DNA from: Membranipora membranacea
Taxonomy: Eukaryota; Bryozoa; Gymnolaemata; Cheilostomatida; Membraniporidae
Direction of reading: 5' to 3'
Length of the DNA stretch: 64,000 bases
Assembly: GCA_914767715.1 (NCBI GenBank)
Contig: OU612071.1
Coordinates: 17,356,948-17,420,947, forward strand
Shown one piece after another: positions 16,408-59,900 of this stretch; the stretch's first letter is position 1, and each line of letters starts with the position of its first letter. The notes below the pieces were generated by a model that did no database searches, was not told the origin of the DNA, and worked only from the letters and a program-made list of their open reading frames with translations. A program made the translations under genes and the position numbers.

Positions 16408-16696
16408 CACTGAATTAGATTCTTCTCTTAGAATGGAAATAGTATCATAGCGTTATACGGTTAGGACACTAAACACAGGGACCCATCTGACTGTTATCTG
16501 ATTGGCTGTCCCTAGTAGCATGAATAATTAGCCTGAGAAATTGTCTTGTTTACAAAATTACAAACAGTAATTATAGCCCATACAGTGTCGATGATTAGGG
16601 CATTTCTAGATTGCTACTAGGGACTGGCTATTTTTGCAAGCCCTTTGTTTTGCAAAAGAAAGCTAATGATGCTATTCCAGATATGGATTTCAATGT
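16408..16696. repeat. Direct repeat E, copy 1
   Basis: About 289 bp repeated at 17046-17333 with few differences, offset by about 638 bp. Each copy has an internal inverted pair, CTGTCCCTAGTAGCA and TTGCTACTAGGGAC. A third, diverged inverted relative lies at 33990-34085, sharing TTCCATATCTGGTATAGTAT-type sequence. Confidence 0.85.
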
Positions 16697-17045
16697 CACT
16701 ATCACATCGCTCAAAATTATCACTCACTTCACTTGGTCTTTTAATTAGACAAAACCTCACAAGTTGCAAAACCCGAGTGTTGAATTGAACTGATACCTAA
16801 AAACTATCTTAGCATGCAACATATTATGCTGCACCAACGAACCCTCTATTATTATATTTTTTCATAAATTTGGCTATTTATGTAATGATGTTATAAATTT
16901 TTACCATGATTACGTCACCGAGAAACAGATTAAATTGAGCCTTAGTAATGGCAGGGATCCGTAGACACATAATTATGGTTAAGGAACAATTTTGCATTAT
17001 GCACTACAAAATAGTGTTAATTCATCTTCATCATTTATTTGCGGT

Positions 17046-17333
17046 CACTGAATTAAATTCTTCTCATAGAATGGAAATAGTATCATAGCGTTATACAGTT
17101 ACGACACTAAACACAGAGACACATCTGACTGTTATCTGATTGGCTGTCCCTAGTAGCATGAATAATTAGCCTGAGAAATTGTCTTGTTTACAAAATTGAA
17201 AACAGTAATTATACCCCTACAGTGTCAATGATTTGGGCATTTCTAGATTGCTACTAGGGACTGGCTATTTTTGCAAGCCCTTTGTTTTGCAAAAGAAAGC
17301 TAATGATGCTATTCCAGATATGGAATTCAATGT
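17046..17333. repeat. Direct repeat E, copy 2
   Basis: Same unit as 16408-16696, including ATGGAAATAGTATCATAGCG and GCAAGCCCTTTGTTTTGCAA. The similarity of the two copies points to a recent local duplication or to two insertions of the same element. The sequence between them is not shared. Confidence 0.85.
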
Positions 17334-18501
17334 TTGCGGTCCATCGCAGGTATAATGGTTCGTTCAATTATTTTCCAGTGAAATCTGAGTTTGAAATTTA
17401 GGACAGAGCTAGCCTCGGGTTGCGGGCAATTTTATAGCTTCAAATTCAGAGGGATGTTTCTAATATTTTATCGTTGATTTAACAGGCCCTAAATATAATA
17501 GGGCATCGTGTGTTTTCCAGGTAACTGTATTATCATATTTTACAAATTCAATATTTCAAAGTAATTATCATTGCTAAATTTATTTACCTTGTGTGGATTG
17601 TGGCGGAGAATGTTAGGCAAGCTTCATTTCAAAACATTTTGCCGTTGACGCTACTGCTGCAATAAAGCGGCTTTGTCATTTCGTAAAAAAAATATTACAG
17701 AAAACATCAGAACAACTTTTTGTAGTGATGGAGGTCCCTCCTTGATAAAGCACTCATATCACCTCTTTCGATACTGTTGGTGATTGAAAGTGAGGTGTTA
17801 GTTCGATATCGTAGAACAAAGCTCGCGTTGTTTTCCAAGAGCCAAGTGATCATCTACAACTATCCATCAGGGGTAGAGAGTGTTGCTGGTTTAAGTTGTG
17901 TAGGTAAAATTTAAGATGAAGTTTCCCAATAAAATCCCAAGACAACATATTGCATATTTCCCACTGTACCTTTTTGCAATTACTGTAGATTGTCTCGATT
18001 CGGCCGTGATAGAGTTATTCTCCCATGCGAGAAAATCATAGCATCTTTTGAATACTGCCAACAGACTCAGAGTGTTGATAAAATATGTAAAATTTTGAGG
18101 AAGAAATAAAAACACCCAAATAAAAGAATGGTCAGATGTCCTGTTTCTTTTAACATTCATTGAAACAATGTTCACAGTCAAGATTTAGACCGCTGCTGAA
18201 GTGATTGTATTGAACAAATAATGAATAATAGAAATCAATGGTCGTAACTAATAACAAAAACAAGTACAATGAACTTCACTTTGTATATGCTGTCCATGCT
18301 TGGGCTATTGCTGAGGTTGATTCAAGGCACTAATTGAAGCAAGTCCCATATTTTTTCTGTACACAGTATTTCAACTATACTGTTTTCCATGTGCATCATG
18401 TACACGGGTGTCTGATACAATTTATAAGATCTCAAGTTTAGTTAACTACGTTGGGTGACTAGGAACACAGCACGTCTACACTATAGTAGAAAATACTGAA
18501 A

Positions 18502-25155: not shown

Positions 25156-28100
25156 ATGATCGTGACAGTACTTTGCTTGGTTCTTGTAAGCTCTATTCAA
25201 GGTAAGGGCTTAACATTCGTTTCTGACTTTGATTTTTCTCATCAGGCAAACTGTGAGCTTCTTCAGATTTGTAAGTTAACATAATCGTAGATGTTGTTAG
25301 TCATAATATCTCAGCGGGCTTACCTACATTCCATATCAATAACTAATGGAGAATTTCTGGGACTAAATAGTCCCTGTTATGCTCATTCAAATTCATTTAC
25401 ATTCTATTTTAGAAGGGTCTAGAGTATGTTAACTCCCCTGTTGCGGGTTAACGCTAAAATATCGCTGCCGTTGTCAATACTGTTTTTTTTTTATAATTTC
25501 TAGTGTAAGTAGAGCAGCCTTATAAATGTCCTAGATTAGCATGGGCCAGGGTTACTGCTATACTGTAAGTGGATCATCATTTAAGTGTGAATCCGTAACA
25601 GGGGAGATTACATACTCTAGACCCTTCAAGACCCTGGATTTTCGCACTTTAAATTAGGTTACATCACTCTATAATGTCTTGTGCGAAAAAATTTACTTTT
25701 TTGTTCATTGCAATAGCAAAGCTTTGATATAGTAGTTATTTTTTGCTTCATAGACACTTTAACACAACATTAGCATTTTGAGTACACTCAGTGCATAATC
25801 ATCACTGCATCGGAATTTGACTCTCAACCCTGCCAATTGACAAGTTTATACGAAGCTAGCTCTAGTTCTAGATCCTAGGTCTTTTCTAAGCTAGGAGTCC
25901 ACTGTATGGTGGGGCCCTTTGGATATCCCTTTCTGGTCATTTCAAAGTTTACCCTGAGGCAAGTTAAAAATTCAGCTAAGTAAATTTGAAGGTAAGTTTA
26001 GCTGTTTAGTCAAGTTTTAAGTTGCGAATACCTTACTTGATTATTGGATAGTTATCCTCTCTCTATCTCTTGACAGGTTTCTTGTTGGACAGAGAGGTCT
26101 GCTACGGGGATCTAGGATGTTTTAAAACAGAGACAGTCCGATCTTTCTCCAGACCAATTGTACTGCTCCCCGATGAGCCTGATAAGATCGGTACCCGATT
26201 CTTCCTCTACACCAGGTATGTACAGAAGATAAAATGATGTGGGGAGCCTGGGTGATCCCAGCAAATGAAGAAGGCCACCCACATAAGAGGCAGAGAACGG
26301 AAAATAAGCTAAGCGAGTCGCCTGAGAGGGATAAATATATTGGCTAGTTTGGGGATGACCTATGTTAGCTAATACTAAATTGTTGTTACATAAAGGAAAA
26401 ATGGTGAGTAAAATGTTAGCTAGTTTATCTATTACAGACATGTGTTAAATGACAAACCTTTCTCCGGCGAATTTTTCAAGGGTATTTGCATTTTGTCACT
26501 CTGTGGGTGTTGCCTACTTCACATCCGAATGGAGTTTATTCGAAAGATAGCAAACTTATTATGCAATATTTCAAGGTTTCGTGACGTTAGGTGTCGGCAA
26601 TGACCTTGGGGTTGTCTCTTACATGGCCTTTGGACGAACATCCAAGTGCATACTACACAATAACATTCATGGCAATTCTGCAAATACCATCATTCACCAG
26701 AGGGGGATAATCACTAATTATCTTGATCAAGCCCATTTTATTACAACAGAGATGGACTTTGATGTAAGAAAAATATTTTACTTTCATTGCATTCTGGGAA
26801 ATTTACCACTTCATTCTGGGAACTTGCACCGCTGCATTCTGGGAGCTTTTAGCACTTCTATATTTCAGACAGAATCAGTTGAAGAGTGATGAACATGAGC
26901 TGAGTAGGAAGGTGGTAGACAGTTTCTCCACTTCTAACTTTAACTCCAAAGTGCCGACTAAGTTTATCATCCACGGTTTCACTCACAGCGCACACGAACC
27001 CTGGGTACAGAGTATGAAGGATGAGCTGCTCAAGCATGTGAGTAGTCTTGTGAAGACAGACACTGTCTTCATATATATCAAGTCTGGTCATTTCTGCCTC
27101 CGCCTTGCTGATAGACAGACACTTTTGAAGCCAGACACTGTCCTTATTTGTGTCTATATTAAGAACAAGTGTGGCCAATTAAACCTTTAAGTTTCAGAAC
27201 TCTAAGCTGAGCTTACATGATTGGGCAGAAAACACCTAAATTTATTTGAGAGCATTTCTTTCGGAATTCTTTGAATAAACTAAGAATTAATTCTGAACTA
27301 TTTACTCAACATTTTTGCGCTAGTCTTCATGATTATCTTGATGTCAGGTAAAGAAAAAATTATGTGAGATTATATTTGAATGCTTCGACCATCAAGTCCA
27401 CCATGGAGTCAGTTATTGATGGCAAAGCTACAAGATGACCTCCGGTCATGTAAATTGAGCTCGAGCCCCTAAACTCTAATTGATTGAGGGGGAAATTTCA
27501 ACCTAACATAATATTTCGCTACTATAAATACACAGGATGACATGAACGTGATAGCTGTAGACTGGAGACAGGGCGCTGGATTCCCGTACACACAGGCTAC
27601 AGCTAATATCAGAGTAGTCGCCATGGAGACTGTGAGACTTATCGAGTTCATGCAGACTGAGTACCCAGCAGTCAAGGCAGGAGACATACACTTTATCGGA
27701 CACTCATTGGGCGCCCATGCTTCAGGTGAAGTCGGTACTAAGATCAAGGGCATTGGCAGAATCTCAGGTAAGTGTATAACAGGGGCGTAGTTTAGTAAAA
27801 ATGGTAGGGGAGGCACAAATCCTCGGGGGTGTGAAGAAACATCAGGTTGGGTATTGTAAGCTCCTCCTGAGTCCCTAGTGCTCAGCCTCCGATGTGTTTT
27901 GAAATATAAATAGCAAATGGAAGTCCCAAGCGAGCTGATTCTGACATGGAATATTAAATTATAGCAGAGGCAGAGCGTCCCTGCCTCCCCTAGAACTACG
28001 AATAATAAGAAGTTTATCAGTGACAGGTGAGGATTAATAAACACATGTGACTTTTCCCATCGTGATAAACTCTCTGCAACCTACAGCCCCCACATCATCT

Positions 28101-31100
28101 GATCATGTATACACATTAAGACATCTATAAATTATCCATACAAGGTGTGTATAAAATTATAAGGATATACTGGGCAGGCTAAATTTGTATACAGATTAAA
28201 ACTTTTATAAATTCTTCGAATATACTGGGTAGCTAAAATTAAATTTGTGTGGAATTTGGTCAGTGTTACGCTGGTAGGTCTTACAAAGACATGAAATAGC
28301 CGTCACTAGATGGGAGGGACTTTGAACTTTTGGGGTGAAATATTTTGGCACAACCAGAAAGTCCTATGATATCAATTATTTGTTGTATAACCTTCAAAGT
28401 ACTCAATCCCGTAGTGGCAAGTGTCAGTGTTTCAGGGGCGAGTCACAAACCTTGCCAATTTTTGCCTCAAAATAGATGAGAAATATTTCAAAACTCAATA
28501 TCAATGTCCAGTAACTTTGAGAGATGATGACTCTTTTTCTGACCTTGAATTCTGTTTCCCTCCCAACATAACATGTGAATAAATGCTTTTTAGTCAGGGA
28601 TAGGGATAGGGATAGGGAGCGAGTTTATTAAAGTCTCTGAAAAGAGAAATATGGTATTTCGACAGAGCTAAAAGTTGATTCAATGTAAAATTGCTGATGT
28701 AACACAGATATAAATAAGAATAAAAATATAAAAAGTATATTAATCATATCACAGAGTTCATAAACTTTATGCATTTGCTCGGTAGCAGTTGCTACGAAGG
28801 CTCACTCTAGTTCGCAATATTCTATATACAACCTGATAGTAGATGTTCTGACTCGAAGAGGGGGTTGTCAGTTCCCGTTGCGAACATACCAAGGCAGCGT
28901 GATTTCATGCACCGATTATATACAGTGTCATTATCATACCGTTATGAAACTTGATTTTTGTGTTGAGTTACGCTCCAGTGTGACTATTTTACAAGCTCCA
29001 TCCCATCTTACTAAGTCCTGTTTCCTGTCGTTGGTGATGTTTTTAGGCCTTGACCCAGCTGAGCCATACTTTGAGGGCGCTGTAGAGGATATCAGATTAG
29101 AGAGGAGAGACGCAGAGTTTGTAGACATCATCCACTCTGACGGCAGCGCCTTCCTCGGATCTCTGGGTAAGGTGACATCTTTTAAAAAATGCAAAAATTT
29201 GCGGACTTAATTTATATACTCCGTAGAAGTGTATATTAAGTTTATGTTGCAGGCATATAAGCCAGATTTAACACATTGTCACGAGCTAATGTCGAAGATA
29301 AAGTGTGAAAATTTGCTTTGTCCATATCAGTCACATTCTTGAAAAGGCTGGCTATGGTGAATGAGCAGTTTTAAGCCTGGGGTAGATGCGCTTATAGCAG
29401 TACAAACTAGAACTGGCAATGGGTAATAGTCCATGATTCGAAAGAAAGGATGTTAACAGAATTCTGTAGGATTCGACGAAAATCCAAGTGTACAAAGTAG
29501 ATGAGCCCGATTTCGTTAATGTTATATTCACTGACTGGGAATTAAAGTCAATTGCATTGTTGGATACTCATTGTAATTTTCTATTCAAAATGTAATATAG
29601 AAAACCGATATCTTAGTATCCTAGTAATGTCTAACTGTTTTTGATTGCGGTATTTTCAGGTATGGGATATCGTTCATCAGTCGGCCATGTTGATTTCTAC
29701 CCTAACGGTGGCGGTGACCAGCCAGGATGTGACAAGTCTGTAGGTAGTAAGTTGATCAACTCGGCTTCTGCTGGCCTCTCCAAGGGTACTGATGGTAAGT
29801 GGCTAAAACAATGCAAAGACGGTCGACACGCTTGTGGGATATAAAGTTGCCTTCCCATCAGTAAGGGACAGACAAATCGATTGAGAATTAGATGCTATCT
29901 GTGTCTTTGTTCAGAGCATTCGTTTTTTGATGCATGTGATGTCATGGCAATAAAGTCTGTTCACAAACATCCTATAATGCAATTTTCTGGAGTCAACTGT
30001 GGGATCAGGTCAATGTATGGTAAACTGGGTATTTCAGTTTGAAATTACATTGTGGGAATGATGTTGAAGTTACCATAAACATTTTACATTGATTATAAAT
30101 AATCAATGTAAAATCCCGTAAAGAGCTGAGAGCTAAAACAGGATTGTTCCCTCTGTGGTGGTGGAGGGATATTGCACAAGTCGGGCATCGAGGCGCCTCA
30201 ATAACCGAATCGTGCAATATCCCTCCGCTACAACAGAAGTGGAAAAACTTGATCCAGTTGAGAGCTACTGTGAATGGGATTTTCCATTGATTATTGATAA
30301 GCAATTTCCTTTTCATTGAACAATTCCCGCTTTTACCTATCATTATTTACCTGACATCGGTGAATTCCAGAATATTGCATTCTGGGTAACTCCGGAAATT
30401 CCAGAACACTGCATTCTGGGTAACTCCGGGAATCCCATAACATTGCATTCTGGGTAACCTATCTGACACACCCTGTCATAGTGTTTGCTGTTTGGTGTTT
30501 CAGCACTAAAGGACACATTTGCATGCAGTCATCAAAGAGCTTATGAATATTACATTGAGTCAATCAACTTTGAATGTCCTTTCAGAGCCTACCCATGCAA
30601 GTCTTACGACGACTTTAAGGTTGGTCTCATGAACTCACATAAACCAATCAGAATGTTGATATCAGGCAACCAATGGAAACAGGTTATTGTTTTGGAATTG
30701 ATTCAATAAATCGGAGGGAGTTCATTTGAACGCAAAATTAAGAAAATTATGTTTCGTAAACTTCAATGGTAGTCTGATAACTATGGTCTGATCAAGCTTG
30801 TTTTGACAAGTATTGTCAGGTAAACACGAGAAGCGAAAGGAAAGGGGGAGGGGTCTGCAACTGAACAAAAACTGTATTCTTTCCTAACGCCATCCCAACA
30901 ATTCTTGTCAAAGCAACCTAAGTTGCACTATAATTTAATTACCTGAATATTGACAGAAGTAACATCTGATTAATTTTAGCCCTGAAAAACGCATTTGCGT
31001 GCAGCCACCTCCGAGCTGTACAGTATTTCACAGAGTCAATCAACTCTAAATGCCCTTTCCAGTCTTACCAGTGTAAGAGCTTCGATGATTTTAAGGTGAG

Positions 31101-34100
31101 AACAGGACTATAACCTGAGGCAGCATGGTCTCCGTGAGAAATAATCATGGAATTTATGTTTGTTTGTGTCAATCCAACAACTAATACGGCTTAAGACCCG
31201 TTTGACAGCATAGCTGAGTTTATCTTTTAACCAAAAAGGGCATGTGTTATCAACATTCCCCACTCAATGTTCCAAGGAGGGTAAAACTGATTTTGTAAAT
31301 CATGTAATCACCCAAATAATAAATTGCTTAAAAATAAAAACGGATTCTCATTGACTATTCCCGTTGCTCAGTCTCATTGCCCAAATGGCACTTGATTGAT
31401 GGTTGTGTGTAGTCATAAATCGATTGATCAACATGATAACTTTGTTGCAGGCTGCCAAGTGCCTGAGTTGCGGAGATGGACAGTGCTCTCGTATGGGATA
31501 TCATGCTGACCAATCAGAAGCCAGAGGTGACTTCTATGTAATGACCAATCAGAAGGGAGAAGCGCCACACTGCTGTGAGTTATACCTCCGCTATGATATT
31601 CTTCTGTTACTACGCTGTGATGTTGTTTAGTTAGATAGGTTAGGAGTCTATTCACACAATCCTACACACTGTGATGTCACACTATATTAAAATCTCTAGT
31701 AATGTTTAAATTTTCTGAAATTCCGTACAATGGCAAAACAATATCTTTGAGCTGCATTGATTCCAGTACTCATTCAAACTCAATATCAAATCATGAGTGA
31801 CGTCAAGAAGCTGAACCAATATAAATCTTCATTGAAAGAAGATATAACGCGGAAATTACCAACATTTAACACAGCAAAAAGTAAACCAAATTTATGATTA
31901 TTTATGACCAAAGTTAAACCAACTAAACCTAACAGATTTGATGCCAAGAGCTATTCTTTTCACGCTTACAGCTTTTTGTCTTGAACACGTGGCGAGTTTA
32001 AATGGTTCGTACACATTGCATGACATTTTGGTTTGGTATATTGGGTGGCTAACGGTTTGATGGGTGTAAGTTTAACAGCTAGCATTGGTTGTTGAGAAGT
32101 AACATGTTGACCTTATAACCTCATGTTCTCAACGACCTCATGACCTATATACCCCTTGTCCTCATGAACCCATTACTTCAAAACCTCATGACCTTGTGAC
32201 CCATATTACAGCCTACCACTACAGTATGAAGGTACAGGCTGGAGTGATGGACGGTAAAGCTTACGGTGAAGTCGATATCTCTGTCGGAGGAGATAATGGT
32301 ACCAGCTTCGGTCCCATCCCTATGACTGCGTTAGTATTATTCATTGTTATTATTTTAATATGACTAAGTTGATGAGCATCCCCCAGTGCAATTTTCTGGA
32401 ATTCCCGTTGAGATCAGGTGAGATTCAGCTGCTCTCCCTGGGAGGCCCAGGTAGAATTGTATTGTACATGGGAATGTTGACAAAACACCCTGTTGCATCA
32501 TGACAGAATCACCTATGATAACACAAATTCGGAAAAATTGTAAGGCTTGAAAAATTGTTTTTAGCCTCAACTGTAGTGGAAGAATCTTGTCTTGACCTTA
32601 ATTATAACCTTATTTAAAATATTTTTCTTCAATTTCGTTTGGTGGCATATCCTGCAATGACAAAGATTTCTCACCTGACTCTGTCGAAATCTGCAGCGCA
32701 TTAAGCTTTTCTAGCTGATATAATAAATTATTCGATGATTCAGATTGTCATTGATGATCCCTAACTTTGTAATAGGAGATACGCTCTTAGCTCAAACCCT
32801 GCTGTCAAGTACTAGTACTGAATCACTGGTTATGATAATATAGTGCTAAATACTCCAAAGCTCATGTAAAATACAAATTATTATGTAATACTATTAGTAC
32901 AAAATATATTATGATTGTTTTTAATTTTTTGATTTTACTATTGAAGTAAGGAGACTTATGTGGAGACTAACACAGTGCTGACCAGACTAGTAGTAACACT
33001 GAAGAAGCTGACTGACCTCTCCAAGGTCACTGTTACCTACAAGAAGGATGATTGCTTTACCTGCTTTGTCTATACCGACTTTCTCAGACTACAGAAAGTG
33101 GAGATTAACTCCGGAGAAGATCAGGAGAGGTAAGAATGTGCTGATCGGTGGTAGTATGAAGGGGGAGACAATTACTGTGTGATATACTATCACAGGTTTA
33201 TTTCTGATTCATATAGCATAAGTTCAATCAGGATGATTTTGCTGTGACAACCCTACTACAAGTTTTCTAAATAGGGGCGAGCACATGTTAGGTACATTTT
33301 TTGTGTCAAATAATCAAAGTTACACATGCTAATACCAAAGTATCGGTGTCAGTTTTGACGGTTGGATGAGGAAATGCAAAATCAGTCTAGATATCAAGAG
33401 TTACTTTCTGCTGAGATATGGCTAATATACATGTCCACATTCACAAGTCATCAAGGTTTGATGGAACCAAGGGGAGTAAATATTAGGGAGAGTTTATATT
33501 AGCCACTTTGGGGAATTCCTTTGTTAGCTAGTACCAGTTTTCACTAGCTAAGGTATTAATTTATAGTAATGGGATGATTTTGGGCAAATGTTAAATAGCC
33601 ATTAATTTGCCTGTTCCAAGCCTGAGAGAATGGGCAAGTTTTTCCTTACTCCCCTGCATAGAAATAGAGCCAATAGAAACCTAGACCGCTCTTTGGAGTC
33701 GTCCCACTTTTTGCCAATCGCCTGTGTATAAGAAATCAGTGGTAGGGTTTCTTTCAAGAATGAATTAGATGGACTAGCTGAAAAACTAACCCATTATCCT
33801 TACTACTATCTGGGTGTAACAGGAATTTTTTCTGGACATTGAAACTCATCCAGATAACAGGCTATCCCTACCACTGATTGTGGTTAACCAGTAATAACGA
33901 AAACCACAAATACTGGTTATGCATCTATGTATCGATGTCTATGCTCCCCTGTGCTACATACCTACACTAGAACTTGCCAGTCATAGAGACAAATCATTGA
34001 GTTCCATATCTGGTATAGTATCATTAGCTAATTCTCTTGCCCAACAATGGGTTTGCAAAGATTGTCTGTCCCTGGTAGCTATTTAGGAAAGCCCAAATCA

Positions 34101-34324
34101 ACGACATTGAAGGCTTTATTATTTATGCTAGTAGAGATGGCCAATCAAATCAAAACATTATCAGAGGTGTCCTGTGTTAAGTGTTCTTACTGTCTGATGT
34201 AATGATACTAATTCAGTGTGACAATGGATTTTGTTACAGCACTGCTTACTGTGGAAAGAACACCAGCGTGGCTAAGGACCAGATCAGAGAGTTCAGTAAG
34301 GCCGAGAGATTCAACAGCTGTTAG
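25156..34324 (+). CDS. Secreted pancreatic-type triacylglycerol lipase with mutually exclusive exons
   Basis: Exons: 25156-25201, 26077-26215, 26869-27037, 27536-27767, 29047-29166, 29660-29794, then either 30504-30619 or 30980-31095, 31451-31574, 32212-32329, 32947-33129, 34240-34324; phases agree and the product is 488 residues (human PNLIP is 465). The first 15 residues form a signal peptide (MIVTVLCLVLVSSIQG). EVCYGDLGCF is the family start. Catalytic residues: Ser175 in GHSLGAH, Asp198 in GLDPAEP, and His290 in CSHQRA or CSHLRA. The lid loop lies between Cys259 and Cys288, long as in true lipases and not shortened as in PLA1-type members. Residues from about 361 form the PLAT/LH2 domain (YHYSMKVQAGVMDG). 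It should hydrolyse dietary or storage triglyceride outside the cell. AATAAA lies at 34431-34436. Confidence 0.93.
25411..25628. mobile_element. MITE in lipase intron 1
   Basis: Terminal inverted repeats of about 16 bp: AAGGGTCTAGAGTATGT at the left and its near complement ACATACTCTAGACCCTT at the right, followed inward by paired CCCCTGTT / AACAGGGG. Total length is about 218 bp, with no coding potential. No second copy was noticed in the window. Confidence 0.8.
26785..26850 (+). repeat. Triplicated CATTCTGGGA motif before lipase exon 3
   Basis: CATTCTGGGAA, CATTCTGGGAA and CATTCTGGGAG recur at about 24-bp spacing in the last 85 bases of intron 2, just before the exon 3 acceptor. Related GCATTCTGGGTAACTCC units form a second triplet at 30362-30458 in the same gene. 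Confidence 0.7.
27783..28000 (+). mobile_element. hAT-like MITE family H, copy 2
   Basis: Begins CAGGGGCGTAGTTTAGTAAA about 12 bases after the exon 4 donor and ends CTGCCTCCCCTAGAACTAC. The core matches 21825-22075 (GAAGTCCCAAGCGAGCTGAT). The CAGGGGCG terminus is typical of hAT elements. Confidence 0.78.
28595..28618 (+). repeat. Short TAGGGA hexamer repeat
   Basis: Four G-rich hexamers in a row (CAGGGA then three TAGGGA) in lipase intron 4. It resembles a telomere-like repeat and has four GGG runs, but is too short to call a telomeric relic. Confidence 0.8.
30079..30226. repeat. Two small hairpins in lipase intron 6
   Basis: ATTTTACATTGATTAT pairs with ATAATCAATGTAAAAT (30079-30114), and GGAGGGATATTGCAC pairs with GTGCAATATCCCTCC (30163-30226). 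Both lie upstream of the alternative exon pair. Confidence 0.75.
30362..30458 (+). repeat. Three tandem 30-34 bp units 45 bp before alternative exon 7a
   Basis: Each unit has CATTCTGGGTAAC preceded by a CCAGAA/CCATAA-like block; units start near 30362, 30396 and 30429. The array ends about 45 bases before the acceptor of exon 7a. Whether it helps regulate splicing is unknown. Confidence 0.75.
30504..30619 (+). CDS. Lipase alternative exon 7a (catalytic His segment)
   Basis: This is 116 nt, entering in phase 1 and leaving in phase 0. It encodes ALKDTFACSHQRAYEYYIES followed by 19 more residues ending YDDFK. It carries the catalytic His and the Cys that closes the lid loop. Its donor is GTTGGT, a weak site. 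Compared with 7b, 26 of 39 residues are identical, and 12 of those 26 shared residues use different codons, so selection has kept the protein while the DNA drifted. The reading frame is intact. Confidence 0.85.
30980..31095 (+). CDS. Lipase alternative exon 7b (catalytic His segment)
   Basis: Also 116 nt with the same phases as 7a, 360 nt downstream. It encodes ALKNAFACSHLRAVQYFTES followed by 19 residues ending FDDFK, and keeps the His and all Cys positions. Its donor GTGAGA is stronger than that of 7a. Differences from 7a cluster after the His (Tyr-to-Val, Ile-to-Thr, Phe-to-Ser, Glu-to-Lys, Arg-to-Gln), a region expected near the active site and lid. Joined directly behind 7a it would read AAG CCC TGA. 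Confidence 0.88.
33657..33931. repeat. Dispersed repeat family D, copy 2 (inverted)
   Basis: Reverse complement of the element at 8281-8553, with similar length and the same internal ATCAGTGGTAGGG / CCCTACCACTGAT pairing. It lies in lipase intron 10. A diverged inverted relative of repeat E follows at 33990-34085. Confidence 0.8.
33990..34085 (-). repeat. Diverged inverted relative of repeat E
   Basis: The reverse complement shares GCTACCAGGGACAGAC and AGCTAATGAT, followed by a diverged ATATGGAA-type end, with 16620-16696 and 17255-17333. Only the distal third of the E unit is present. Confidence 0.55.
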
Positions 34325-52947: not shown

Positions 52948-55900
52948 TACGTAATACAAGTTTTAATTGCGATATGTAGGATCAGCTCCAGATCCAGTTT
53001 TATCCACCCCACTGTCACGCCGCGGTATGCCTGCTGTCTGACCAGTGGAGGGGGAGCAACTCATAATGCAGGCAAAATTTATGGAAAATGTTAACTTGGT
53101 CTAGGTCAGCGCTAGTCCACCTTTGTTTGTCTTTCAGCAAACACTGCGTCTATTGAAACTTGTGATGAGGAGGGATCTATCCTTGCCGAGATCTCTGGTG
53201 TCATCTAGCAACTACTGACACCAGTTGAATGCCTGTGTGTCTGTACCCAGGATTGAAGAGTTCACCACTCTAATGAGAGACTCTCCAACGAGTCATTATT
53301 CAGTTTCTTTCCGGTTGAATGTAGGTTAGTTTTGTTCACCTCTCCCCCCCTCCCCCAAAGGTTTTGTCCGAGTTGAGAGAGAAGCAGCCTGGAATACAAG
53401 AAATAATTGGTATGAGATAAGATTTCTTGACATTGCCTGAGAGGTCCGAGCAACAATGACTTATCCCAGTTGTCCACTTGGCACCCGTGTGCTCTATGAC
53501 AAATTCAAACTGATCGCATTGCATTGTTGGAATGAACTCATCAGAGATAGAATTCATATGGCTGAAAGGGTCTGTGAATTAGGAATTTAAGGCCGAAGCT
53601 ACACTGATATATTTTTACACGCCCCCTAGTTCAATTAATTCAAACTCATAACCTTGGTACATGTCTTCTTGTTCCAGTGCCTGTTTAGACACAATACCAT
53701 AGACCATTATTCTTCTCTCCATACATGCTTGTCCAGGTGTTCTCTTTCTAAACCCCCATATGTTTTCTACACTTTACTTCAGCGAACAACTCATGTTAAC
53801 TTTCCTTCTCAAATTATCACGTTCAGAGCTAGAATACCTTTTGTTTTGCAGCGCACTCGTAGCTTTGAGAGTAATTAGATATTAATTCACATGTTCGGAT
53901 CAGATTTTTAGCTCCAAGGGATTCGAGTGTATAAGTCAAAGAATGAACGTTATTAATACTTTATTATAATCGGACAAAGTTAACAAGTGCAGAGGCTGAA
54001 TACAGTGTTGTATAGTAATGCTATTGATAGCGTTATATACTGACTGTGCTGTCAATTGTGAAAACAACACCTGATCAGTTTTTTATTTTTTTAAGTGACG
54101 TAGTTCATGTTTGTAGTTAGGTATATCTGCTGAGCTCTAAAAGATGGACCTGCATAATCTGACCCCACAAATCCGGAGTGCCCCAAATGATGTAGTTCTA
54201 AATTGATGAAAGACGCGGTGTGCACTTTTTACCTACCAGCTGTTGGGAAGTTCTGAGCTCAAATATCATGTTTATCCTGGCTTATCGCTTCTTAATATGC
54301 GCTGCTGTAACTTAAAATATATCCTCTATCTATAAACTCAGATAGTGCCTGTATGGACGGTGTTGTTATTTTGATGTACCACCTAATTCTTGAGGGGGGG
54401 GGGATAGAACTTGTATTTATTTACTCCAACTGGAAAAAGGGATAAGTTTAGCAAACATTCATCGTCACTCAGCTGGTTACAGTTCCAAAGCTGCCACTCC
54501 ATCTGTCTTTGTCTGTCAGTCTAGAATGCAAGTCACCTGCCCCCATCAAACAACTGCCATCTGTATTTACCTCTCTTATAATAGACCCCCAAGTTGTTAT
54601 GTTCTAAGAAAAACATCATTTGAGTTGTTGACTTCTAATTTTGCCTAATTGCTTTTATAGATTAAAACTTTTAAGTACATGGCTGTTGTACATGACTGGT
54701 AATATAAACCGAGGCTGTCCAGCCTGACGCCCTCAAAGCTGGAACTAAAATTAACCAGCATCACAGCTACAGCGGTAATTTAGAAAACAGGTAAACAAGC
54801 CTTCATCTGAAAACCAATATTTTTGCTTTAAATTTCTCTACATGCCACTGGAATAAGTTCTACATCAAAGCCATTTCCTATTCAACGTTCCATTGTGTTC
54901 CCTAATTCGCCTTCATCAATAACAAGCCAACTCTGATTAAAATCCATTGTTACTTTGTGTCTTTTTAACTGTATCAAATCACAGACTTTATTATAAATGC
55001 GTAACAATAGATTTAATATAATCATTAGGGTTTTATATTATCATTGTATTAGATATATAATATAATACAATAAAGCTTACAGGCCTTGCAGAGCTGGTCG
55101 GTTAAATATAAAAGTGATTTGACGGTCGTTCAATGCTTCTTAGCAACAGATCTGTAGACCACACAGGGGTCTTACCGTGACAGGCTTACTTAGAGTGTAT
55201 GACAGCTGGTATATACACTAATTGTGGTGTATAGGATATTACTGTCTGGGCACCTGTTACAGATTGTCAAATCTCTGGTAGATGGGATATAGCCAAACAA
55301 GCACCTGCCAGTGATTGCCTGATCTGCCTGGATTACCTTGTCGCGTCTGGATATATCTGTTTCTCCTCGCAAGTCTGACATTAAGGTGAGAAGTTATCCC
55401 CCATACACGTGTTATTACCACAGAATTGGAAACGATGGTAATGTCACACATGACTTAGGGAAGGAGGATGTTTTATGCAACATGACTGCGATTGACAAGT
55501 TTCAGGGTTGTATTTTCTGCTTCAAATGTCAGCGCAGATGAGATTTGATGTACTGGAGTTTCTGGCCTTAGTTAATGTGTATGGCATGATCACCTACTGC
55601 AGCTATGTCTGCCAGTCATTTGCAGCCAAGCAGATGGTGGATGTCAAAGGAAAGATACTGTTACCATTTCTAAGCTGCCAGCTATGACCCTGCTACATCG
55701 CTTCTGTGTGTTAAATATAATTTTTATAGGCAATACATTGACACTTACTACTATTCCGTTACTTCTTTTACACCGAGTGACTCTTGGGTTCGTGTAAGAT
55801 GTAGTTACATTGTAGTTCAAGGATCAGAGTTTTCATGTTTACACAGCTCAACCGCAAGAGCATTCATATAGGCGTCGTGTTTTTGCCGACTAGTTGAAGC

Positions 55901-56070
55901 ATTAGATTCACCTTGGTGTCTAAATATCAAGGAAATTTAGCAAATTTTTGTCCTGCTGCACCAATTCGTTACGCTTATTCATTCTATGTTGCAGATTATT
56001 GCAAATATACCTGATCTTTTTACAATGTAAAATTACTTTATCAATTCGATATACAATCAAGTATTTACTA
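52077..56070. other. 3' flank of DR1 and spacer; no gene recognised
   Basis: Contains an AT dinucleotide run (52915-52945), an inverted B-box-like CCTGAGATTTGAACCC at about 52713-52728 (a possible SINE scrap), a poly-G run near 54396, and otherwise AT-rich sequence. No AATAAA lies close to the DR1 stop; a variant AATATAAA near 52658 may serve. Open frames at 53654-53878 and 55338-55541 have no family resemblance that I can see. Confidence 0.45.
52915..52945. repeat. AT dinucleotide microsatellite
   Basis: About 15.5 uninterrupted AT units. Confidence 0.95.
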
Positions 56071-56667
56071 GAAGGGAAGGGAAGGGAAGGGAAGGGAAGG
56101 GAAGGGAAGGGAAGGGAAGGGAAGGGAAGGGAAGGGAAGGGAAGGGAAGGGAAGGGAATGGAAGGGAATGGAAGGGAAGGGAAGGGAAGGGAAGGGAAGG
56201 GAAGGGAAGGGAAGGGAAGGGAAGGGAAGGGAAGGGAAGGGAATGGAAGGGAATGGAAGGGAATGGAAGGGAAGGGAAGGGAAGGGAAGGGAAGGGAAGG
56301 GAAGGGAAGGGAAGGGAAGGGAAGGGAATGGAAGGGAAGGGAAGGGAAGGGAAGGGAAGGGAAGGGAAGGGAATGGAAGGGAAGGGAAGGGAAGGGAAGG
56401 GAAGGGAAGGGAAGGGAAGGGAAGGGAAGGGAAGGGAAGGGAAGGGAAGGGAAGGGAAGGGAAGGGAAGGGAAGGGAAGGGAAGGGAAGGGAAGGGAATG
56501 GAAGGGAATGGAAGGGAAGGGAAGGGAAGGGAAGGGAAGGGAAGGGAAGGGAAGGGAAGGGAAGGGAAGGGAAGGGAAGGGAATGGAAGGGAAGGGAAGG
56601 GAAGGGAAGGGAAGGGAAGGGAAGGGAAGGGAAGGGAAGGGAAGGGAAGGGAAGGGAAGGGAAGGGA
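56071..56667 (+). repeat. GGGAA pentanucleotide satellite, about 119 units
   Basis: A continuous purine array of GGGAA units, 597 bp long. Ten units carry a G-to-T change (seen as GAATG) at 56156, 56166, 56241, 56251, 56261, 56326, 56371, 56496, 56506 and 56581. Every normal unit supplies a GGG run separated by AA, fitting the G3-N2 pattern of G-quadruplexes. The array is also a purine mirror repeat capable of triplex DNA. It lies about 270 bp before the first coding exon of the downstream gene. Confidence 0.97.
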
Positions 56668-56930
56668 CCGACTTAATGTTAGCTAAATCTAAATCTTGAG
56701 GTGAACATCCATACACAACAAAGAACGTAGTAAATGTTAGCTAGCCTTAGCCTTTTCACACAGCTACTTTTTCGTTTTTTAGCCGCATGATAAAGCTAAG
56801 CTAGCCTAATGATATGACATTTATCCTGCAAAAACTCAACTCCTATAGGGTCGTTCTAATACAATACTGGCAGAATATTATTTCACTTTGTTTTGTAACC
56901 GATATTTGTACTTTCACTTATTATTTCCAG

Positions 56931-59900
56931 ACTGAACAAAATGGCAGCCGGAGACATCCAGGAACAGTATGCCACAGCGCCTGGTAACTGGTTAGCCCAA
57001 GAGATCAGAAGATTCCAAGAACAAAGTACGGGGCTCTTCCCATCCCCCAAACCTGGTGATGAGAAGATAAGATACAACACTATATACGGATTAGAATATG
57101 CTCCATTAGCAAATGTAAGCATGATTTCTAAATGCTTTCTATCGAGATGAATTTGATATAAGATACTAAACTGTTTCCTTTTGGTTTTATGTATCAGAAT
57201 TCTTCGCCGATAGATTGTGAGACCAAGGTGTACCATAGTTGAGGCTGAATTCCTGCACTTGGAGCAACAAGGGAACCATTTTGCTATTACACCCCTTTCC
57301 ACAACCCCCTCCCCCTAAGACACCCCTACCTCTGAGCAGATTGCTACAGGATATCCACAATATTTTCAAATCATTCAAAGACACAACAATCCATTATTTG
57401 CCTTGTCAAGTCGCTCAATTATAATGTTTGACGGTTAGTCAAGAAGTGAAAATAGTTTGTTTGACAGCATACATCAATAACTTTGTTAAAATAATAGAAA
57501 CAATTCAAGTATCTATTTACGTTATACATAATATCGTCAGGACAGACAAGCACTTCTGACAATTTAATTTCTGTATATGTCTGAAGTGTATTAGATCATA
57601 TTATCGATAATATCAGTAAAAGTATGTGCAAACACTTAGTTCTATAAGCATTACAGACACTGTCTCTATCCATCGCATATCTTGGGGTTGACTTTGACTT
57701 TATTGCTCTATCAAGCTCTATAGGTAGCGGTATATTTTTAGCCACTTGGCCGAGAAGTTGATGACTGTGAACCGTCTTGTAGCTAGCTTAGTTGTTTGCA
57801 GAGACATACTTGCTGCTTGATTATAGTGATGCTTTATCCAGACGGCTTTCTTGTTTCCAATAATATTTTTTGACCAACATCAAAATTTGTGGTTTTTTTT
57901 ACTGATACTACGGCTCCAGAGTAAACAAACAGGGATGACAGGGCTTCAAAAGCCGTCTTTCACCATTCATGTAATAATACTATGAGTATATTTAACTTGT
58001 TTTTTGTTGTAGGAGGCGTATAAGACAGACACACCAATGTTACTGAAGAGGCCTGGTGTCAAGAAGGAGACTCCATTCTCGTTGGAACAAGCTAAGGTAA
58101 GTTATTATGGTCTAATCGCTAGGACATGTCAACAACCTTCCCATAATACAATGTCAGCTTGGAATTTCCAAAGTAGTCCAAGGCGTTTCATCTATATATT
58201 ATCATTGACACTGTTATGAGTATCCCACAATGCACTTCTATGGAATTCCCATTGAGATCTGGTCATTCTCATTCACTTGACCTAACAGGGGATTTCCGGA
58301 GTATTGCATTGTGGGATACTTTGTTCAGATCCGAGGTGACACCAAGCTGTTATAGGCTGATCAGAGAGCGCTTGGGGCCGAACATTAGCCTTACATTCAT
58401 TTGGTAGATTGATTCAAGCTCAGAACCTCAAAGCTGCTTATCTGCATTATTACTCTGATCTCGTTTTACCCTAGTACATGGAGGGCTAGCATTTTTTTAT
58501 CCCAGCTCATTGGGTCACAACACAGCACAAGTTACCTTGCTTTCCGTAGATTGAAAAGTTGACTTCATGTTTGGTTTTGAAATCATTGCCTTCGATTTCA
58601 AATGTTGCAGTGAACACATTGTCTTCCATGCCAGTTGTTGCAGAGATCGCAGGCTCAGAGGCTCAGATTAACATTTAGTGATCGACCTTGTCCTGATTCA
58701 GTTGCACAGTGTCTCAGTTTTGAACCAAAGCCCAGGGATCAGATCAACCAGTCATGATAGCCACTGTGAAACGTGATTTTGATTATGATTTTGAGACTAT
58801 TCTGATTCCATTCATCAAATCTCAACAAGCAGATCAGAGTCATTGCTATAAGACTTGTTATTATAGTACAGGCCTGTAGTTCTAGGGGAGGCAGGGGCGC
58901 TCTGCCTCCCCTAGAATGCTCAACAGAGTGGCCTAAAAACGCTATAATCGAATTATCCATGTCAGAATCAGCTTAATTGGGAGTTTCATTTGCTATTGAT
59001 TTCATTAAAACACTTTAGAGGCGGGGGGGGGAGTAGTGGATTAACCTCAGACACCACAGGAGGAGCTCTCAATATCTGTCCTGGTGATACTACACACCCT
59101 CAAGGGTTTCTGCCTCCCCTACTATTTTTACTAAACTATGGCCCTGTAGTAGTATGTGAGTATGTAGTATCATGTTTAGCTATGTTTAGTCATGATATTG
59201 AAGATATAGTATATAGGCATTACATTACTTTGATAACTCAGTAGAGGTATCGTTTGTGAGCAGTTACTACAGTTATCGGGCCAAAGTATGATGGTCTGTT
59301 TCCTCTTCTCTGTAATTAGATGTCGGTTATTGATCTATATTGGTGTGAGTATAAATTGAGTGCAGGAAATGTCTGAGGATCCGGATGATTGCAACAATAA
59401 TGATAATGAAGCACCGCAAAACCTGAACATGAGTGAATAGCACTGAGGCTTAAATGTAGCTTGACATTCTGAGTTAGATACGATTCTATGTCCGATTTCT
59501 ATGTCAATGTACTTGAGTTCCGCCTCGGTGTATTGTTTTCGGGAGGATTAAGTATTACCAGGTCTCATTAGTTAACTGAAAGAAAGGAGATTAGGGCCTA
59601 ACCCTGTCAGAGAGGGAGGGTGTCCCATCCTCAACGGTCCCTGCTGAGGGGATTCTATATTCGGTAGTTTGAATAAGGAGTTATGGTTCCTCTATATAAG
59701 AGAATATAACTCCTAATTACAGTTGATTTTCTCCCTTTGGTCGGGCCGGTCGATTTTGTTTACCTGTAGTATACTTATCATAGCATTTATTGGACGTGAT
59801 ACAACGGAGCTTCCATACTTAACTTTGGCCTGATTATTTTAGCTACGATTTGCTGTCAGTTGGTAATTTTAGAACGGTATTATTTGTTTAAGATAAACAA

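Follow-up and report, generated by a model that had tools for sequence, protein, structure and literature searches.

The lipase gene in the window

The window, the whole stretch of 64,000 nucleotides analysed here, covers positions 17356948-17420947 (plus strand) of chromosome 7, numbered by size, of Membranipora membranacea; coordinates without a chromosome or locus name are counted from its first base. The genome searched comprised 339,339,785 bases on 18 contigs including that of the window. For the assembly tzMemMemb1.1 of this species, PMC10290214 gives 339,374,674 bases in 21 scaffolds, a construction from HiFi long reads and an RNA-seq data set (ERR6464929). On the plus strand, a splice model from the ATG at 25156 to the TAG ending at 34324 revealed a gene of the pancreatic lipase family with 11 exon positions, GT-AG borders at every intron and a predicted product of 488 amino acids. 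Exon 1 (25156..25201) starts with the ATG and a signal-peptide-like stretch recognized by eye, MIVTVLCLVLVSSIQ, and ends in phase 1 at a GT donor. The splice model continues with exon 2 (26077..26215), in which the match to the lipase profile PF00151 starts, and exon 3 (26869..27037). Exon 4 (27536..27767) contains the GHSLG motif with the catalytic Ser175, exon 5 (29047..29166) the GLDPAEP motif with the catalytic Asp198, and exon 6 (29660..29794) the first lid cysteine, Cys259, together with most of the lid; it ends in phase 1. The seventh position is occupied twice: exon 7a (30504..30619; donor AAG/gttggt) and its homologous alternative copy, exon 7b (30980..31095; donor AAG/gtgaga), both 116 nt long, are entered in phase 1 and left in phase 0, and are separated by a GT-AG intron of 360 nt (30620..30979). 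The model is completed by exon 8 (31451..31574), exon 9 (32212..32329) with the begin of the C-terminal region, exon 10 (32947..33129) and exon 11 (34240..34324), which holds the TAG and was placed from the frame and an AG acceptor only. No Pfam match was obtained for the 28 residues of exon 11, and no Pfam domain was reported for the C-terminal region from exon 9 onwards.

The PF00151 match reached 333.4 bits for the isoform with exon 7a and 329.5 bits for that with exon 7b (cut-off 27) and covered positions 2-333 of the 336 profile positions, thus the whole catalytic domain. A search of the PDB with the 7b isoform, shortened by its first 16 and last 28 residues, had as best match pancreatic lipase related protein 2 (E 1e-84); further matches were pancreatic lipase and related protein 1, and lipoprotein lipase chains aligned to the query as far as residue 443. 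The vertebrate pancreatic lipase and related proteins 1 and 2 (1hpl, 2ppl, 1w52) matched over query residues ~5-376 and aligned with the window lipase at GHSLG, the DPAEP/DPVE region, the lid cysteine and the C-N-H of exon 7. The triad Ser175-Asp198-His290 and the lid cysteines Cys259 and Cys288, assigned by alignment with the PDB chains and from the roles known in this family, are the same in both isoforms. Exon 7 encodes residues 281-319, that is the last seven residues of the lid, Cys288, His290 and a loop with two further cysteines. The original prediction of an exchange of the catalytic histidine and the lid segment is thus correct for the histidine, but only the C-terminal edge of the lid (seven residues and Cys288) is exchanged, the rest being located in exon 6.

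Tandem exons and reading frame

The identical length of the two exons, their phases and the identity at 26 of 39 residues, leaving 13 that differ, were reproduced together with the coordinates and the AG/GT borders. On the nucleotide level, 81 of 117 positions are identical, the shared G of exon 6 counted, and 36 differ. The repeat spans 30498-30621 and 30974-31097 with an identity of 70 %, and the likeness fades a few bases beyond the splice sites, which indicates an old duplication. An assembly artefact, with alleles or haplotypes laid in tandem, is highly improbable: no point speaks in its favour, whereas the nucleotide identity of only ~70 %, the flanking introns outside the repeat and the HiFi long-read assembly (PMC10290214) oppose it. 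Chance similarity of the two exons was ruled out by the pattern of divergence, by the way the similarity fades beyond the exons and by the constraint described below.

Either exon alone yields the open frame of 488 amino acids with GT-AG throughout. Inclusion of both results in K-P-stop at the junction of 7a with 7b, a product of 320 amino acids and four exon junctions downstream of the stop, the last one 535 nt away. Without either exon, 280 amino acids are encoded through exon 6 and translation meets a TGA 19 codons into exon 8, thus a stop after 299 amino acids with three junctions downstream, the last one 366 nt away. By the usual exon-junction rule, both would be targets of decay; with these junctions downstream, the transcripts of double inclusion or double skipping would be removed or non-functional. 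Both stops were located where the original prediction had placed them. Its conclusion, a choice made strict by phase, has to be divided: the frame logic is valid, but the phase does not force the spliceosome, it merely renders the wrong products non-functional. Any exon whose length cannot be divided by three creates such a lock automatically when it is duplicated, and the lock is no proof that exclusion is regulated.

The reading we prefer, at a probability of about 80 %, is that one gene encodes two predicted secreted lipases, with old tandem copies of exon 7 spliced in a mutually exclusive manner. In each transcript, 7a or 7b would link exon 6 with exon 8. Either choice would keep the triad Ser175-Asp198-His290 and the loop cysteines, while 13 of the 39 residues around the histidine would change; double inclusion or double skipping would lead into a premature stop and a transcript that is removed or non-functional. 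From the sequence we infer that both copies are spliced, that their use is exclusive, that the choice is regulated and that the two products differ in function.

A variant of this reading drops the exclusiveness: both exons are used, and frequent double inclusion or skipping acts, in addition to the production of two enzymes, as a regulated unproductive pathway. The reading frame is the only exclusion mechanism that is visible, given an intron of 360 nt and GT-AG borders throughout. In the main text of PMC5740500, 377 (60 %) of 629 human clusters of mutually exclusive exons contain exons whose length is no multiple of three, and joining reads were present in 83 of these 377 frame-incompatible clusters. 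No direct point opposes this variant, and it is compatible with the production of two enzymes; we regard it as rather improbable.

Constraint on both exon copies

The use of different codons at 12 of the 26 shared residues was reproduced by codon comparison. In a neutral simulation with all 36 differences placed on one copy, at least 26 identical residues were retained in a fraction of 1e-5 of 100,000 runs. However, one relaxed copy with 18 changes still keeps ~26.6 of 39 residues on average, so about 26 identities could equally arise with constraint on just one of the two, and a profile test was added. The profile was built from 10 related exon segments, 7a and 7b left out; it scored 7a with 63.6 bits and 7b with 60.8 bits. 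After 12 neutral changes, sequences that were still open had mean scores of 40.4 bits starting from 7a and 38.0 bits starting from 7b, and after 18 changes of 30.0 and 28.2 bits, respectively. At 12 changes, a fraction of 0.0033 of 3000 sequences derived from 7a and 0 of 3000 derived from 7b scored as high as the real other copy; at 18, 24 and 36 changes, 0 of 3000 did so in both directions. The profile scores lie far above neutral decay, thus both copies have been constrained, and the claim of selection on the protein level was borne out by simulations and profile test together. For the pair, dN was ~0.21 and dS 1.2 by LWL85; NG86 returned -1 for dS, taken as saturation, and YN00 gave no value.

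These scores bear on a further explanation, that only one copy enters productive mRNA, the other being either a duplicate in decay or a poison exon that does no more than lower expression when included. Both copies fit the profile of related exons about equally and far above neutral decay, and in both the histidine, the cysteines and the splice sites are kept; a poison exon would need no conserved lipase sequence. Splice-site strength supplies what speaks for a single functional copy. With an approximate human matrix, the donor of 7a scored 5.9 versus 10.7 for that of 7b, and the pyrimidine tract of 7b is poorer (9/16) than that of 7a (11/16). By the same matrix the donors of exons 8 and 9 scored 5.7 and 0.3, and the tracts of exons 4, 5 and 8 also have 9/16; since other exons of the gene are thus as weak or weaker, the support is slight. 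Productive use of one copy alone is thus unlikely, a shade more so than non-strict use of both.

Splice signals and nearby elements

The splice-site strength gave no clear sign of regulation; with the same human matrix, the donors of the two exon copies in the chromosome-10 paralogue described below were alike (7.3 and 7.1). All borders are GT-AG; U12 motifs were assessed by eye. At 360 nt, the intron separating 7a from 7b is too long for steric exclusion to be a likely mechanism. Competing RNA pairing between introns did not stand out in six intron pairs (z -1.59 to 0.52), in a weak test with whole-intron duplexes and 60 shuffles each. Single short complementary pairs exist, such as 30651-30664 with 31245-31258, as unproven candidates.

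A minisatellite with 2.8 copies of a 34-nt unit containing TTGCATTCTGGG lies at 30363..30458 (plus strand), ends 45 nt before exon 7a and is a possible regulatory element. It shares TGCATTCTGGG with a second minisatellite at 26788-26844; the two are located directly upstream of exons 7a and 3, respectively. TGCATG, which we take to be an RBFOX-type motif, occurs at 30520-30525 within exon 7a, with TGCGTG at the homologous place of exon 7b, and again at 29931 in intron 6. The same intron contains an inverted repeat at 30152-30237 with 43-nt arms, no spacer and 81 % complementarity, which could be a remnant of a small mobile element.

A second exon pair on chromosome 10

The gene, its exon pair and the frame logic were as originally described, and the arrangement is repeated in a paralogue on chromosome 10. 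The search of the genome with PF00151 yielded 21 matches from 32 scored candidates and at least eight lipase genes, a lower bound owing to this selection. In a scan of the eight genes with an exon-7 profile, two contained a pair, and in the other six a single copy was seen, in one of them (locus L015) as the sole and weaker match of 31 bits. Four more flanking stretches scanned for a second exon 7 had nothing above 9.4 bits.

The pair on chromosome 10, new in this study, is located on the minus strand, with one copy of 110 nt at 823337-823446 and another of 107 nt at 822940-823046, both with phase 1 on entry and phase 0 on exit. In a hand alignment 16 of 37 positions are identical. With a single copy, whichever it is, the frame stays open across seven joined exons, and the two forms score 292.2 and 291.2 bits against PF00151. 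With both copies a stop occurs five codons into the second copy, and with both skipped a stop follows directly after the junction codon; the paralogue thus carries a second frame-locked exon-7 pair. Against the NCBIfam model for lipoprotein lipase it scored 192.4 bits, below the cut-off of 822.75.

In the window gene, the residue after the catalytic histidine is Gln291 in 7a and Leu291 in 7b. Together, the 13 differing residues take the net charge from -1 to +2. Leucine is present at this place in the three aligned vertebrate pancreatic lipases; lipoprotein lipase has glutamate directly after the catalytic histidine. Both copies of the chromosome-10 paralogue have serine; the two versions there thus do not differ at this residue. 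The swap of 7a and 7b would most likely tune lid opening or substrate preference.

Origin of the exon pairs

In a gene tree of nine sequences (eight bryozoan genes and the horse lipase; matched pieces of unequal coverage), the window gene and the chromosome-10 gene are sisters with an ultrafast bootstrap of 82, the usual bar being 95. A free exon tree of 10 segments, L015 left out, clustered the chromosome-10 copies (85), whereas the window copies 7a and 7b formed no clade; with surrounding supports of 17-59 this tree does not decide the origin. Among three set topologies, the grouping within genes was best and the two groupings across genes were rejected (AU 0.014 and 0.030), in a test with 43 columns and one backbone chosen by the analyst. 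The intron after exon 7 follows DDFK in both window copies and precedes DDYE in both chromosome-10 copies; its site is four codons apart between the two genes and constant within each pair. Place and phase of this intron vary by eye among further paralogues (L014:7600-7830, L016:7162-7388, L009:6237-7446): in a third paralogue it is nearby in phase 2, and in L016 it is absent.

Intron positions and the three-topology test speak for separate duplications, or else for conversion in which the splice sites were transferred as well. That the exon was duplicated separately in two sister genes and kept in both as a frame-locked either/or cassette has, in our estimate, just short of an even chance; two genes would then provide four versions of the active site, and splicing as well as gene duplication would diversify the lipases. 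Somewhat under even odds are given to a single exon duplication before the split of the genes, followed by conversion between the copies within each gene. The sister relation of the two pair-bearing genes (bootstrap 82) makes a shared single event the shorter history, and the missing clade of the window copies in the free tree (supports 17-59) fits it as well. The rejected groupings across genes, within the limits of 43 columns, 10 segments and three set topologies, and an intron whose site differs by four codons between the genes but not between the copies within a gene, argue against it.

Relation to known systems

Enzyme families usually diversify through gene duplication. By splicing, the window lipase gene and its relative on chromosome 10 appear capable of exchanging part of their active sites. 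Vertebrate pancreatic lipase and its related proteins 1 and 2 are separate proteins, unlike the predicted window isoforms of one gene, and we recall no tandem copy of this exon in vertebrate pancreatic lipase genes. Frame-locked mutually exclusive exons are already known as a kind. In the main texts of PMC5740500 and PMC9741552, mutually exclusive tandem exons in general are, like 7a and 7b, homologous neighbours, joint inclusion breaks the frame in the 377 human clusters named above, and independent events in orthologous genes are documented (PMC9741552). The bryozoan pair differs from the known tandem cases by its location in a lipase of the pancreatic family and by carrying the catalytic histidine. 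The word 'lipase' has 0 occurrences in these two main texts and is absent from the consulted passages of PMC9013439. In the consulted part of PMC3022543, exons 3 and 4 of CYP4F3 likewise let one enzyme gene encode catalytically distinct enzymes by mutually exclusive exons; however, this enzyme is unrelated, and selection of the exon is coupled there to two transcription start sites. For the house spider, the available text of PMC6700725 describes 26 mutually exclusive exon events at venom genes with multiple transcripts and lists lipases among the venom enzymes; an overlap is not stated there. A lipase with mutually exclusive exons was not found in the literature covered, mostly open literature without supplements, which does not imply its absence from print.

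The two predicted enzymes, 13 residues apart beside the catalytic histidine, would constitute a natural experiment; the animal has a larva that feeds and an adult that forms colonies. Independent duplications of the exon in both genes, if they occurred, would suggest that the segment has been repeatedly favoured for such switching.

Other repeats in the window

When 1570 open stretches of at least 25 codons were compared with each other (same strand, at most 15 kb apart, E up to 1e-3, first member of a pair starting outside 55800-57400), exons 7a and 7b were the sole pair taken for coding tandem exons. On visual inspection, the other listed pairs were classed as repeats. Around 119 copies of GAAGG are located at 56071-56667, a repeat whose composition alone creates long reading frames in several frames. 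A direct repeat of several hundred bases, 16472-16796 and 17110-17398, has a high translated similarity on both strands.
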